Below are positions 35,126 to 38,716 of a stretch of DNA of 64,000 nt, piece by piece. Below the pieces are notes generated by a model. That model had not been told where the DNA came from. It ran no database searches and worked only from the letters and a program-made list of their open reading frames with translations. The stretch's first letter is position 1. The number at the start of each line of letters is the position of its first letter. This DNA is from Syntrophorhabdaceae bacterium (lineage in GTDB: Bacteria > Desulfobacterota > Syntrophorhabdia > Syntrophorhabdales > Syntrophorhabdaceae): NCBI GenBank assembly GCA_035541755.1, contig DATKMQ010000179.1, forward strand, positions 1 through 64,000, read 5' to 3'. A program made the position numbers and the translations under genes.

Positions 35126-36301
35126 CTATTTTGAGAATTCCATGAAATACTTTCGCGACCGCTCGATGACATCCATATCTACGCAGTAGGCCAGTCTGAA
35201 GTAGCCGCTCCTGCCGAAACCGATACCCGGAACGCCCAGGATATGGTGTTTCTGAAGTTCCCTCACAAATTGAATGTCATCGGGCATCGGTGATTTCGGA
35301 AAGATGTAAAACGCCCCGAGAGGTTTTATCACCTCAAAGCCCGATTCGACGAGGATCTCATAAATGGCATCGCGCCTCCGCTGATATTCCGTAATATCGA
35401 TCTTAGCGTTCTGAAATTTGCCCACAACACGTTGCATGATAGCCGGCGCATTTATGAAACCGAGGATTCTGTTTGAAAAGATCATCGCATCCATGAGGGG
35501 CCTGATATTCTTGATTGACGGCGAAGCTGCAATGTACCCGATCCGCTCTCCTGCAAGACCTAAGTCTTTGGAGTGGCAGGTCACAACAATGGTGTCCTCG
35601 TAGATATTGAATACATCGGGGAGAACGGTTCCATTATAGATCAGCTTTCTGTAAGCCTCGTCGGCTATGAGGAATATTCGCTGTCCCTTGTCGCGCCTCT
35701 CCTTTAGAACCCCGGCGAGCTCTTTCAGCTCTTCCTCATTATATACGACGCCGGTAGGATTGTTGGGCGAGTTGATGAGTATGGCCTTGGTCTTTCTGGT
35801 GATGGCATCTTTCATCCTGCCTACATCCAAATGGAAATCATCCTTCGTGTCCACAGGCCGTATCACGCCGCCATGGTTCCCGATATAAAACATGAACTCG
35901 ACAAAATACGGGTTAGGAACGATCACTTCGTCGCCGGGGTCAAGCAACGCCTTGAACACGACATTGAGCCCTCCCGCAGCGCCTACGGTCATGACGATAT
36001 TATCCCTACTGAAAGGAAGTCTTGTTTTTTCCCTGCAATAACCGGCTATCTCCTCGCGGACAAATTCGTAACCGCTGTTTGTCATATACCGGTGCATACC
36101 CCCGTTTTCCGTGGCAATGATTTTGATGAGCTCTTCCTTCAAAGCTTTTGGCGGTTCCGTGATGGGGTTGCCAAGCGTAAAATCGAGTATATTCTCCGGC
36201 CCATACTGTTTCTTCAGTTTTTCCCCTTCTTCGAACATGGCCCTGATCCAAGAAGATGATTTCATCGAATGGCTGATACTTTTAGATATGCTCATGCTCA
36301 C
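35126..36301 (-). CDS. PLP-dependent aminotransferase (class I/II), second of a tandem pair
   Basis: This 391-residue fold-type I aminotransferase has the substrate-side strand FTLGNP, the PLP-stacking region, SPNNPTG, the Asp in LIADEAYRK, the PLP Lys in CHSKDLGLAGERIGY and the C-terminal Arg in YFRLAYCV. It is a clear paralogue of the gene just upstream, which it overlaps by four bases (ATGA). Aspartate, alanine and aromatic aminotransferases share this family; the Phe/Tyr attenuator ahead of the pair favours an aromatic amino acid role, by inference. Confidence 0.9.
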   Translation of the reverse strand: MSMSISKSISHSMKSSSWIRAMFEEGEKLKKQYGPENILDFTLGNPITEPPKALKEELIKIIATENGGMHRYMTNSGYEFVREEIAGYCREKTRLPFSRDNIVMTVGAAGGLNVVFKALLDPGDEVIVPNPYFVEFMFYIGNHGGVIRPVDTKDDFHLDVGRMKDAITRKTKAILINSPNNPTGVVYNEEELKELAGVLKERRDKGQRIFLIADEAYRKLIYNGTVLPDVFNIYEDTIVVTCHSKDLGLAGERIGYIAASPSIKNIRPLMDAMIFSNRILGFINAPAIMQRVVGKFQNAKIDITEYQRRRDAIYEILVESGFEVIKPLGAFYIFPKSPMPDDIQFVRELQKHHILGVPGIGFGRSGYFRLAYCVDMDVIERSRKYFMEFSK

Positions 36302-37488
36302 CTCAAGTTATAACGTTTTCCGGTCCTGATGAACCCTTCCGCGCTTTTTTGTATTGTTTCTATGGGTACACAATAGGCAATTCTGAAATACCCTTTCTTT
36401 CCGAATCCCCTCCCCGGGACGACCATAATCCTTTCTTCCTGCTGCAACATCCGGACGAACTCGACCTCATCCGCAATGGGCGACTTGGGGAACATATAGA
36501 ACGCCCCCAGGGGCTTCACACATTCGAATCCGCCCTCCATAAGGATTTCGTAGAGTGTATCTCTCTTCTTCTCATACTCTCCGATATTCACCGACGTTCT
36601 TTGAAACATACCGGCGATCCGCTGAAAAAGCGCCGGCGCATTGACAAACCCAAGGGTCCTCATCGATATCATGAGCGCCGAAACCACAAGTTCATATTCC
36701 GGAATGCGCGGAGAGATGGCAACATAGCCGATCCTCTCCCCCGGAAGCGCGAGGTCCTTTGAATGGGACGTGACGGCAAAGACAAGGTCATAGAGTTGAA
36801 ACAGATTGGGGAGGCGAATCCCGTCGTATACGATTTTCTTGTAGGCATCATCGGAGATAATATAGATCTCCTGTCCCTGAGCCCTCCTTCTGTTGAGAAG
36901 TTCCGCGAGCGCCTTTAAGGTTTCCTCCGTGTACACTGCGCCGGTCGGGTTGTTCGGGCTATTGATGAGGATTGCCTTGGTCTTCACGTTTATCGCCTTT
37001 TCCAGCTTCTCCATATCGAGCTGGAAATCCTTTTTCGATTGGACAAGTCGCATCAAACCACCATGATTTTCAATGTAATTCTTAAACTCCCAGAAGAAGG
37101 GCGACGGAACGATCACCTGATCGCCAGGCGAGAGTATGCTCTTGAGAAGGATGTTGAGTCCTCCGGCGCAGCCGGTCGACATGAAAATATGTGTCGCCGT
37201 AAAGGGCACACCGTGCTGTTCGGAAAGATAGGCCGCTATTTCGCTCCGAACATCTTCATAGCCGTTGTTGGACATGTATCGGTGCATCCCCTTTAAGGGG
37301 TGGGCAAGCGTTTCGACAAGTGTTTTTTGGACCTGTTCCGGTGGCTCTGTGTCGGGGTTTCCCAGTGAAAAATCATAGACATTCTGTTCGCCATATTCCC
37401 TCTTGATCCGAAGCCCTTCCTCGAACATTCTTCGCGTCCAACCTTCCTGATTGGCGATCAGCTTCTGAATCTTACGCGAGATTATCAT
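36298..37488 (-). CDS. PLP-dependent aminotransferase (class I/II), first of a tandem pair
   Basis: This 396-residue aminotransferase parallels its downstream partner block by block: FSLGNPDTEPPE, GMHRYMSNNGYEDVR, SPNNPTGAVY, IISDDAYKK, SHSKDLALPGERIGY with the PLP Lys, and YFRIAYCVP. The start is fixed by AAGGAGG six bases before ATG 37488. The upstream 170 bases form an attenuator-like leader with a Phe/Tyr-rich peptide, so expression should rise when charged Phe- or Tyr-tRNA is short. The likely role is the last step of phenylalanine and tyrosine synthesis or the reverse; this is inferred from the leader, not from active-site residues. Confidence 0.91.
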   Translation of the reverse strand: MIISRKIQKLIANQEGWTRRMFEEGLRIKREYGEQNVYDFSLGNPDTEPPEQVQKTLVETLAHPLKGMHRYMSNNGYEDVRSEIAAYLSEQHGVPFTATHIFMSTGCAGGLNILLKSILSPGDQVIVPSPFFWEFKNYIENHGGLMRLVQSKKDFQLDMEKLEKAINVKTKAILINSPNNPTGAVYTEETLKALAELLNRRRAQGQEIYIISDDAYKKIVYDGIRLPNLFQLYDLVFAVTSHSKDLALPGERIGYVAISPRIPEYELVVSALMISMRTLGFVNAPALFQRIAGMFQRTSVNIGEYEKKRDTLYEILMEGGFECVKPLGAFYMFPKSPIADEVEFVRMLQQEERIMVVPGRGFGKKGYFRIAYCVPIETIQKSAEGFIRTGKRYNLR

Positions 37489-37504
37489 GATCCCTCCTTA
37501 CAAT

Positions 37505-37533
37505 AAAAAAGCCATGGGTTCATCCCATGGCTT
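37505..37533 (-). terminator. Second terminator hairpin of the aminotransferase leader
   Basis: On the minus strand AAGCCATGGG and CCCATGGCTT pair over ten bases across a five-base loop, followed by six T. It ends about ten bases before the ribosome site. The eight-base core of its arms is identical to that of the first hairpin, so strands could also exchange between the two. Confidence 0.75.
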
Positions 37534-37540
37534 GCAAACT

Positions 37541-37574
37541 AAAAAAGCCATGGGCCTTTGCACCCATGGCTTTT
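37541..37574 (-). terminator. Attenuator terminator hairpin (3:4) of the aminotransferase leader
   Basis: On the minus strand a 12-base stem (AAAAGCCATGGG with CCCATGGCTTTT) encloses an eight-base loop and runs into six T. Its left arm and loop (37566-37558, TGGGTGCAA) can pair instead with 37607-37599 inside the leader peptide gene, which would prevent termination. Confidence 0.82.
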
Positions 37575-37577
37575 GCT

Positions 37578-37658
37578 TTATTCCAAGCAACAAAGACCTG
37601 GGTGCAAGCGTCTAAAGTAATAAAAATAAAAAAAGATGCGGGCGAAGAAAGCTTGCAT
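37578..37658 (-). CDS. Phe/Tyr-rich attenuator leader peptide, 26 aa
   Basis: Reading the minus strand from ATG 37658 gives a 26-residue peptide in which residues 4-15 are FFARIFFYFYYF, so nine of twelve are Phe or Tyr, with the run FFYFYYF at 9-15. It ends at TAA 37580-37578, four bases before the terminator stem. This resembles the pheA and pheST leader peptides of enteric bacteria. The codons are placed so that a ribosome stalled on them leaves 37607-37599 free to form the antiterminator, while a ribosome at the stop covers it. No Shine-Dalgarno is present and the promoter lies very close, so initiation may be leaderless. Confidence 0.8.
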   Translation of the reverse strand: MQAFFARIFFYFYYFRRLHPGLCCLE

Positions 37659-37661
37659 GGT
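37578..37661 (-). promoter_or_regulatory. Attenuator leader RNA, alternative pairings 1:2 and 2:3
   Basis: Segment 1 (37657-37651, TGCAAGC at the leader start codon) is complementary to 37609-37603 (GCTTGCA). Segment 2 (37607-37599, TTGCACCCA) is complementary over nine bases to segment 3 (37566-37558, TGGGTGCAA), and segment 3 belongs to the terminator stem with segment 4. All three mutually exclusive pairings of a classical attenuator are thus seen in the sequence. Confidence 0.8.
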
Positions 37662-37667
37662 AGAGAA

Positions 37668-37696
37668 ATTAAAAAGGAAAATGGCTTCATTGTCAA
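37668..37696 (-). promoter_or_regulatory. Promoter of the aminotransferase operon
   Basis: On the minus strand TTGACA (37696-37691), 17 bases and TTTAAT (37673-37668) form a strong sigma-70 promoter. The expected start near 37661 is only a few bases before the leader peptide ATG. Confidence 0.72.
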
Positions 37697-37792: not shown

Positions 37793-37821
37793 TTGACAAG
37801 GATCGCCAAAATCTTTATAAT
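37793..37821 (+). promoter_or_regulatory. Promoter of the MoxR-VWA operon
   Basis: TTGACA (37793-37798), a 17-base spacer and TATAAT (37816-37821) match the sigma-70 consensus perfectly. An untranslated leader of about 34 bases with AAGGAGG follows. Confidence 0.85.
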
Positions 37822-37861: not shown

Positions 37862-38716
37862 ATGACAAGCAGAACGCAGGGTTATTCCGGAAGCGCTGAC
37901 TACATAGCATCCAAACCCCTCATGGAGATCGTCAATGTTGCCGTCGCACTCAAAAAACCCCTCGTGGTAAAGGGCGAGCCGGGAACGGGCAAGACGCTTC
38001 TTGCTCACAGCATCGCGGAGGCGTTAGACAAGAAGCTACTCATCTGGAACATCAAGTCAACCACAAAGGCAAAAGACGGGCTTTACGTCTATGATACCGT
38101 TCAGAGGCTTAATGACGCTCGGTTCAAAGATAAAGACATCAGCGACATCAGACAGTACATCAAGCACGGAAAACTCGGGCAAGCCTTCATGAGCGATGTG
38201 CAGGTGATCCTGTTGATCGACGAGATCGATAAGGCCGACGTTGAATTTCCGAATGACCTGTTGAACGAGCTCGACGAGATGAGTTTTCATATCCCCGAAC
38301 TTGACGAAGAGGTCACGGCAAAGCACAGGCCCATCGTGATTATCACGAGCAATTCGGAGAAAGAATTGCCTGACGCATTTTTGAGGAGATGTATATTCTA
38401 TTATATCGAATTCCCCGATAACGATATGATGGAAAAGATTGTCAGGGTTCACTATCCGGATATCGAGGTCAAGGTTGTCAAGGAATCGCTCAAACGTTTT
38501 TACTGGATACGCGAGATGGATGGCCTGCGAAAGAAACCCTCCACCAGTGAACTTCTTGATTGGATCAAAGCGCTCACGCTCGGCGGAGTCAATATCGAGA
38601 AATTCACTTCTGAACTACCCTTCCTCGGGACCCTTCTCAAGAACGAACAGGACACGGAGCGGTTCGCCCGGCTTTCCAACGCACAGGGTGGAGCGGGGTT
38701 TAAGAGAAGGTTTTAA
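37862..38716 (+). CDS. MoxR-type AAA+ ATPase
   Basis: This 284-residue AAA+ protein has Walker A GEPGTGKTLL near residue 42, Walker B ILLIDEIDKAD near 122, sensor 1 IITSN and an Arg finger region DAFLRRC. MoxR-type ATPases work with VWA-domain partners as chaperones that insert metals or activate enzymes; the closest pattern is the CoxD/YehL-like type. Its last base is shared with the ATG of the VWA gene, so the pair is made together. The client is unknown and no obvious target gene is adjacent. Confidence 0.9.
   Translation: MTSRTQGYSGSADYIASKPLMEIVNVAVALKKPLVVKGEPGTGKTLLAHSIAEALDKKLLIWNIKSTTKAKDGLYVYDTVQRLNDARFKDKDISDIRQYIKHGKLGQAFMSDVQVILLIDEIDKADVEFPNDLLNELDEMSFHIPELDEEVTAKHRPIVIITSNSEKELPDAFLRRCIFYYIEFPDNDMMEKIVRVHYPDIEVKVVKESLKRFYWIREMDGLRKKPSTSELLDWIKALTLGGVNIEKFTSELPFLGTLLKNEQDTERFARLSNAQGGAGFKRRF

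Follow-up and report, generated by a model that had tools for sequence, protein, structure and literature searches.

In enterobacteria, pheL and pheM, the leaders of pheA and pheST, respectively, combine a short, Phe-rich leader peptide with an antiterminator that competes with a terminator followed by a T run. A leaderless attenuator ORF, located at the very 5' end of the transcript, has been described for trpL of Sinorhizobium meliloti (PMC7298713). Among the 43 Rfam families surveyed in a 2013 study, the amino acid leaders were limited to those for His, Leu, Thr, and Trp; this study put forward the proposal that amino acid attenuators may stem from Gammaproteobacteria, with few transfers (PMC3766115). 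Our searches of an open-access literature collection returned nothing relevant on attenuators in Syntrophorhabdus or deltaproteobacteria, or on leader-peptide attenuators with tandem terminators.

The locus analyzed here lies on the minus strand of a 64,000-nucleotide stretch of a Syntrophorhabdaceae genome (hereafter, the window) and very probably encodes a ribosome-mediated transcription attenuator sensing charged tRNA-Phe and tRNA-Tyr; this high confidence pertains to the attenuator alone, and the relay and the role in salvage discussed below are graded separately. Direct reading of positions 37696-37488 bore out the first-pass annotation, which had placed here a promoter, a 26-codon leader with nine Phe/Tyr codons (all within residues 4-15), an antiterminator and a terminator; a second terminator hairpin, absent from that list, was added. 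The features of the locus are the following:

37668..37696, minus strand: sigma-70-type promoter (TTGACA 37696-37691, 17-nt spacer, TTTAAT 37673-37668; direct reading)
37578..37658, minus strand: leader peptide ORF of 26 codons, MQAFFARIFFYFYYFRRLHPGLCCLE (ATG at 37658, stop 37580-37578)
37614..37634, minus strand: run of seven putative regulatory codons (residues 9-15: Phe-Phe-Tyr-Phe-Tyr-Tyr-Phe), preserved in 42 leaders of the aminotransferase pair
37599..37607, minus strand: segment 2, the 5' arm of the antiterminator, TTGCACCCA, pairing with 37566-37558
37558..37566, minus strand: segment 3, the 3' arm of the antiterminator, TGGGTGCAA, also part of the 5' arm of terminator 1
37571..37590, minus strand: small hairpin, TTGCTT...AAGCAA, lying inside the antiterminator; its loop contains the stop codon of the leader (from the sequence alignment)
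37541..37574, minus strand: terminator 1 (T1), AAAAGCCATGGG / CCCATGGCTTTT (hairpin 37574-37543, T run to 37541)
37505..37533, minus strand: terminator 2 (T2), AAGCCATGGG / CCCATGGCTT plus T run (hairpin 37533-37509, palindromic core common with T1)
37524..37554, minus strand: alternative hairpin X, formed by the 3' arm of T1 (37554-37545) and the 5' arm of T2 (37533-37524), with a putative function
37493..37499, minus strand: Shine-Dalgarno sequence of the first aminotransferase, AAGGAGG (direct reading)
36298..37488, minus strand: first aminotransferase, class I, NCBIfam PRK06836 (525 bits against a cut-off of 376)
35126..36301, minus strand: second aminotransferase, PRK06836 (537 bits against a cut-off of 376)

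The transcript is predicted to start near 37661, about 3 nt 5' of the leader AUG, a distance too short to accommodate a Shine-Dalgarno sequence. All leaders of the order Syntrophorhabdales for which enough upstream sequence is available possess TTGACA followed, after 15-18 nt, by a hexamer resembling a -10 box, and the AUG comes 7-10 nt after this hexamer in 37 of the 40 order leaders whose promoter is visible; therefore, these transcripts should start at the AUG or no more than about 3 nt 5' of it, that is, they would be nearly leaderless. In three distant leaders (L046-L048), the AUG is located 21-30 nt downstream, leaving space for a ribosome binding site. The last codon of the Phe/Tyr run in the window ends 6 nt 5' of segment 2. 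The predicted fold of the leader RNA is more stable than those of its dinucleotide shuffles (z -3.4), and a terminator scan yielded three terminator-like sites compared to 0.5 expected in shuffles. On the plus strand, a perfect TTGACA-17-TATAAT promoter (37793-37821) lies upstream of a divergent ATPase gene that starts at 37862 and is MoxR-like by sequence.

Comparison of orthologous upstream regions, the check proposed along with the original claim, demonstrated conservation of the leader, the in-frame Phe/Tyr codons, and the covarying paired segments. Our sample of the order consisted of 46 genomes, mostly metagenome-assembled, 43 of which contain the start of the first aminotransferase on a contig. 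The leader precedes the same aminotransferase pair in all 41 genomes in which this contig reaches upstream far enough; in two more (L008 and L011), the contig is too short for the leader, and the remaining part shows terminator sequence. Contigs break within the pair itself at L044 and L045, and no orthologue of the first aminotransferase was found in G041, an 84% complete genome. Outside the order, the leader was identified before the same pair in families f10 and f13 and in additional families of the phylum. Of the 294 codons that make up the final seven positions ahead of segment 2 across the leaders, 259 are Phe or Tyr in frame 0; the fraction of such triplets in the other two frames is 0.32 and 0.22, compared to the expectation of 0.48 from base composition. 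Within this run, TTT/TTC and TAT/TAC exchange freely, and the distance from the end of the run to segment 2 is nearly constant across the leaders. The leader L003 (G008) is nearly identical to L040, but the two differ in the stop codon and in the final Phe codon, and the ORF of L003 therefore continues across both terminators; this is possibly a non-functional or constitutive copy.

The pairing of segment 2 with segment 3, reported in the first-pass annotation, holds over all nine bases. In an alignment of 44 leaders (41 from the order genomes and three distant ones from families f10 and f13), 81.6% of the antiterminator cells are paired and five pairs are changed on both sides; there are 18 double-change cells compared to 6.6 in shuffles, and slid partners pair in only 24-42% of cells. 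In the distant leaders, the arms TTGCACCC/GGGTGCAA are swapped for GGTCACCC/GGGTGACC or GGCTCATCC/GGGTGAGCC. The T1 cells are paired in 98.7% of cases, with covariation at two pairs, and T1 and T2 jointly reach 97.5%, with 55 double-change cells compared to 17.5 in shuffles. All these counts come from related, non-independent sequences, and much of the covariation may reflect few events inherited by many genomes. In 41 of the 43 leaders, the antiterminator equals or exceeds T1 in stability; it excludes the terminator and sits 3' of the sensing codons, and two intrinsic terminators precede the structural gene, as expected of this class of regulators. The earlier description of the locus as conforming exactly to the classical stalling model has to be amended. 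Its core, a ribosome-mediated Phe/Tyr attenuator ahead of two class I aminotransferases in a (former) deltaproteobacterium, is supported; the protector pairing of segment 1 with segment 2 does not, being present in the window (7 nt) and missing in 42 of the 43 leaders, so that we discarded segment 1 as a chance match. The protector hairpin of the trp/phe class, which is not demanded by every definition, is accordingly lacking here, and the leader can be described as a variant working like classical attenuators: by its sequence, the switch consists of three segments and has no conserved protector. Because no protector is conserved, an untranslated leader should read through rather than terminate.

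A search of the order with a covariance model of the leader (with rough E-values), followed by retrieval and reading of the paralogues, revealed a family in which the same RNA scaffold carries different codons. All 17 leaders of the shikimate operon (aroF-aroB-aroD-aroE/K-aroA-aroC-pheA-tyrA; the gene order is from L172, with aroD assigned by position only) contain Trp, together with Tyr and mostly Phe. The seven leaders that precede a PRK07777-like aminotransferase all contain Tyr runs and no Trp, and those before the TrpB2 gene carry three or four Trp (MTRKTYTAQWWWWQLS in the window's own genome), compared to Trp in just 3 of the 42 leaders of the aminotransferase pair. Further along the Trp-leader operon of G030 are an aminotransferase gene and three genes with similarity to indolepyruvate oxidoreductase. 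Codons that change with the target gene are, in our view, the strongest evidence for the proposed codon-based sensing. Some weak model matches are on the strand opposite to true leaders, which is explained by the palindromic stems; of the remaining weak opposite-strand matches, most proved to lie across from a leader with Trp codons.

Several additional leaders were noticed in the course of this search. Phe-rich leaders on the same scaffold precede an MBL-fold protein in the window's own genome (G000:C33:46277-46369, L101) and in G019 (L120), and a thiolase in G041 (L108); neither of the two is known as a Phe gene. Beyond the order, Phe/Tyr leaders occur before an apparent aroK-aroC (L156 and L157, family f35; by sequence only), and a YYYFF leader precedes iorA-iorB-paaK (L160, G307), an operon that could convert arylacetates to arylpyruvates. 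Aromatic leaders were also found 5' of a gene of the aldolase type that is similar to the one for the first shikimate step in archaea (L162 and L163, family f51). Trp-rich leaders lie opposite to the model-match strand at L125 (G035) and L129 (G016), and the gene behind them appears, by its start, to encode an exported protein, which may be a transporter subunit. The hairpins preceding 2-isopropylmalate synthase-type genes at L159, L165, and L166 share GGCCATGGG/CCCATGGCC arms, that of L159 following a Leu-rich leader; we treated these as a separate group whose terminator arms are similar, perhaps a Leu counterpart of the aromatic leaders. L119 and L128 were dismissed as chance matches.

The two aminotransferases behind the leader pass the curated cut-off of PRK06836 (NCBIfam NF005305), share 53% sequence identity and are encoded by genes that overlap by 4 nt. 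No characterized close relative of the pair was found, the best solved structure (3ele) being titled just ‘Amino Transferase’. The assignment of the pair to aromatic amino acids made in the first-pass annotation is supported, with the specificity read solely from the leader codons; on these grounds, the pair would catalyze the final step of Phe and Tyr formation. Chorismate synthase was found in 19 of the 46 order genomes and not found in the other 27, which include the window's own genome (G000). Of the 28 genomes with a completeness of 95% or more, 16 have no chorismate synthase, where incompleteness would account for 0.7, and the same search was positive in 14 of 14 control genomes; hence we reject assembly artefact as the cause of this gap. 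The pattern of TrpA is similar (14 of the 15 genomes with TrpA also have chorismate synthase), and chorismate synthase is present in each of the 17 genomes in which a shikimate-operon leader was detected. These observations suggest that the shikimate pathway was lost repeatedly in Syntrophorhabdales. In the window's own genome, we found neither a PheA match nor an orthologue of DAHP synthase, the 35% identical relative of the latter being probably KdsA; this genome retains the aminotransferase pair and TrpB2 with its Trp leader. Indolepyruvate oxidoreductase scores above the family cut-off in this genome and altogether in 38 of the 46 order genomes. Thus, the host probably makes no aromatic rings of its own and, given the gaps at chorismate synthase, PheA, and DAHP synthase, the switch here probably governs salvage of aromatic precursors rather than de novo synthesis. 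The simplest reading of the gene content would be salvage, in which arylacetates and indole serve as precursors of Phe, Tyr, and Trp and the attenuators control the last steps. Such conversion of aryl acids to aromatic amino acids is known in Methanococcus maripaludis, according to work cited in PMC4162585.

Other explanations of the leader differ in what would be sensed and to what end. The order includes known degraders of aromatic compounds, and indolepyruvate ferredoxin oxidoreductase can operate in either direction, so the pair could serve fermentation of Phe and Tyr, with the leader lowering its expression at plenty for another reason; attenuation, however, lifts expression on starvation, the opposite of what catabolism needs, and the same scaffold precedes the shikimate operon and TrpB2, which makes a catabolic role unlikely. 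The almost invariant R-x-L-H-P-G end of the leader peptide might be taken for the arrest motif of a nascent chain that senses a small molecule, but this stretch is encoded by segment 2, which covaries with segment 3 (GC-to-TA and TA-to-GC in L046-L048); furthermore, several leaders end at HP, and the codon content follows the target gene, so that we consider an arrest peptide highly improbable. Least credible of all is a T-box, riboswitch, or protein-binding leader with an incidental Phe/Tyr-rich ORF: a conserved, structured 5' region ending in a terminator would fit, but the frame-specific conservation of the codons would not. A search of the locus and 16 related loci against Rfam, including the T-box and amino acid leader families, yielded no match at the gathering score; the similarity to ctRNA_pGA1, an antisense RNA family (24.5 bits against a gathering score of 45), was rejected as a hairpin look-alike.

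T2 is present in 43 of the 44 leaders, with 96% of the cells paired and six pairs changed on both sides; an independent serial terminator kept so persistently would halt transcription in starved cells too, a point in favor of a functional X. Hairpin X, through which T2 might be disarmed, is paired in 92.8% of the cells of the leader alignment, although this percentage alone is weak evidence given that T1 and T2 share the CCATGG palindrome, from which cross-pairing partly follows automatically. More telling is a double change in L028 and L032, where C-to-T in the 3' arm of T1 weakens T1 to G-U and G-to-A in the 5' arm of T2 keeps X Watson-Crick despite the G-C pair lost from T1, favoring X at a cost to T1; because both genomes belong to the same genus, this was probably a single event. 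In 30 of the 43 leaders, the combination of antiterminator and X matches or exceeds the stability of T1 plus T2. X alone equals or beats T2 in only 11 of the 43, T2 being more stable in 32, and therefore X could work only by forming first. T2 is absent from L023 and from many shikimate-operon leaders, and is therefore dispensable within the leader family. Taken together, the sequences suggest, as a hypothesis, a two-step relay from T1 to T2 through X. The competing account, in which T2 is a mere backup or a decayed duplicate and X relays nothing, draws on the greater stability of T2, the automatic cross-pairing and the leaders with T1 only, and in our assessment falls barely short of an even chance.

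Under the attenuator mechanism that we favor, the polymerase would start about 3 nt 5' of the AUG, and a ribosome would load on the nearly leaderless transcript. With ample Phe and Tyr, the ribosome would cross the codon run and segment 2 up to the stop codon, leaving segment 3 free to build T1, so that transcription would end near 37541. When Phe or Tyr is scarce, the ribosome would wait on the codon run and segment 2 would pair with segment 3, blocking T1 and switching on the aminotransferase genes. The released 3' arm of T1 could then trap the 5' arm of T2 as hairpin X, handing the decision made at T1 over to T2, which in the fed state would stop leaks. The aminotransferases would finish Phe and Tyr, here probably from salvaged arylpyruvates. 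The combined scenario, namely, a relay attenuator operating via palindromic arms within a codon-swapped aromatic regulon that controls salvage in the many Syntrophorhabdales from which the shikimate pathway is gone, is offered tentatively, and we would sooner bet against it in this complete form than for it.

A conserved set of aromatic leaders in Desulfobacterota questions the proposal of a gammaproteobacterial origin of amino acid attenuators. Moreover, the codons amount to a readable substrate label that yields testable roles for two unassigned aminotransferase families, as well as for the TrpB2 operon, the MBL-fold protein, and the thiolase, and the patchy loss of the shikimate pathway with retention of attenuated terminal steps makes precursor salvage in syntrophic aromatic degraders a testable idea. 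Among the systems described previously, the M. maripaludis route from aryl acids via indolepyruvate oxidoreductase, an alternative to the shikimate route, is the metabolic counterpart (as cited in PMC4162585), but this is an archaeon, with no attenuators in that account, and salvage in our case is deduced from gene content. A second, tandem terminator exists in the rimP leader of some Gammaproteobacteria, which, however, is not an amino acid leader-peptide attenuator and has arms carrying inverse motifs rather than one palindrome (PMC2965389). The S. meliloti trpL shares the leaderless ORF and ribosome-mediated attenuation, but belongs to an alphaproteobacterium and places Trp codons before trpE(G), with no codon-swapped aromatic family described (PMC7298713). 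With pheL and pheM, the present leader has in common the short peptide with a Phe-rich run, the alternative between antiterminator and terminator, and the T run; it differs in using both Phe and Tyr codons, preceding aminotransferase genes, starting nearly leaderless, having a second serial terminator, and lacking a conserved protector hairpin and an Rfam match. Thus, the type of mechanism is already known, and the present variant, its regulon, and its setting appear to be new.
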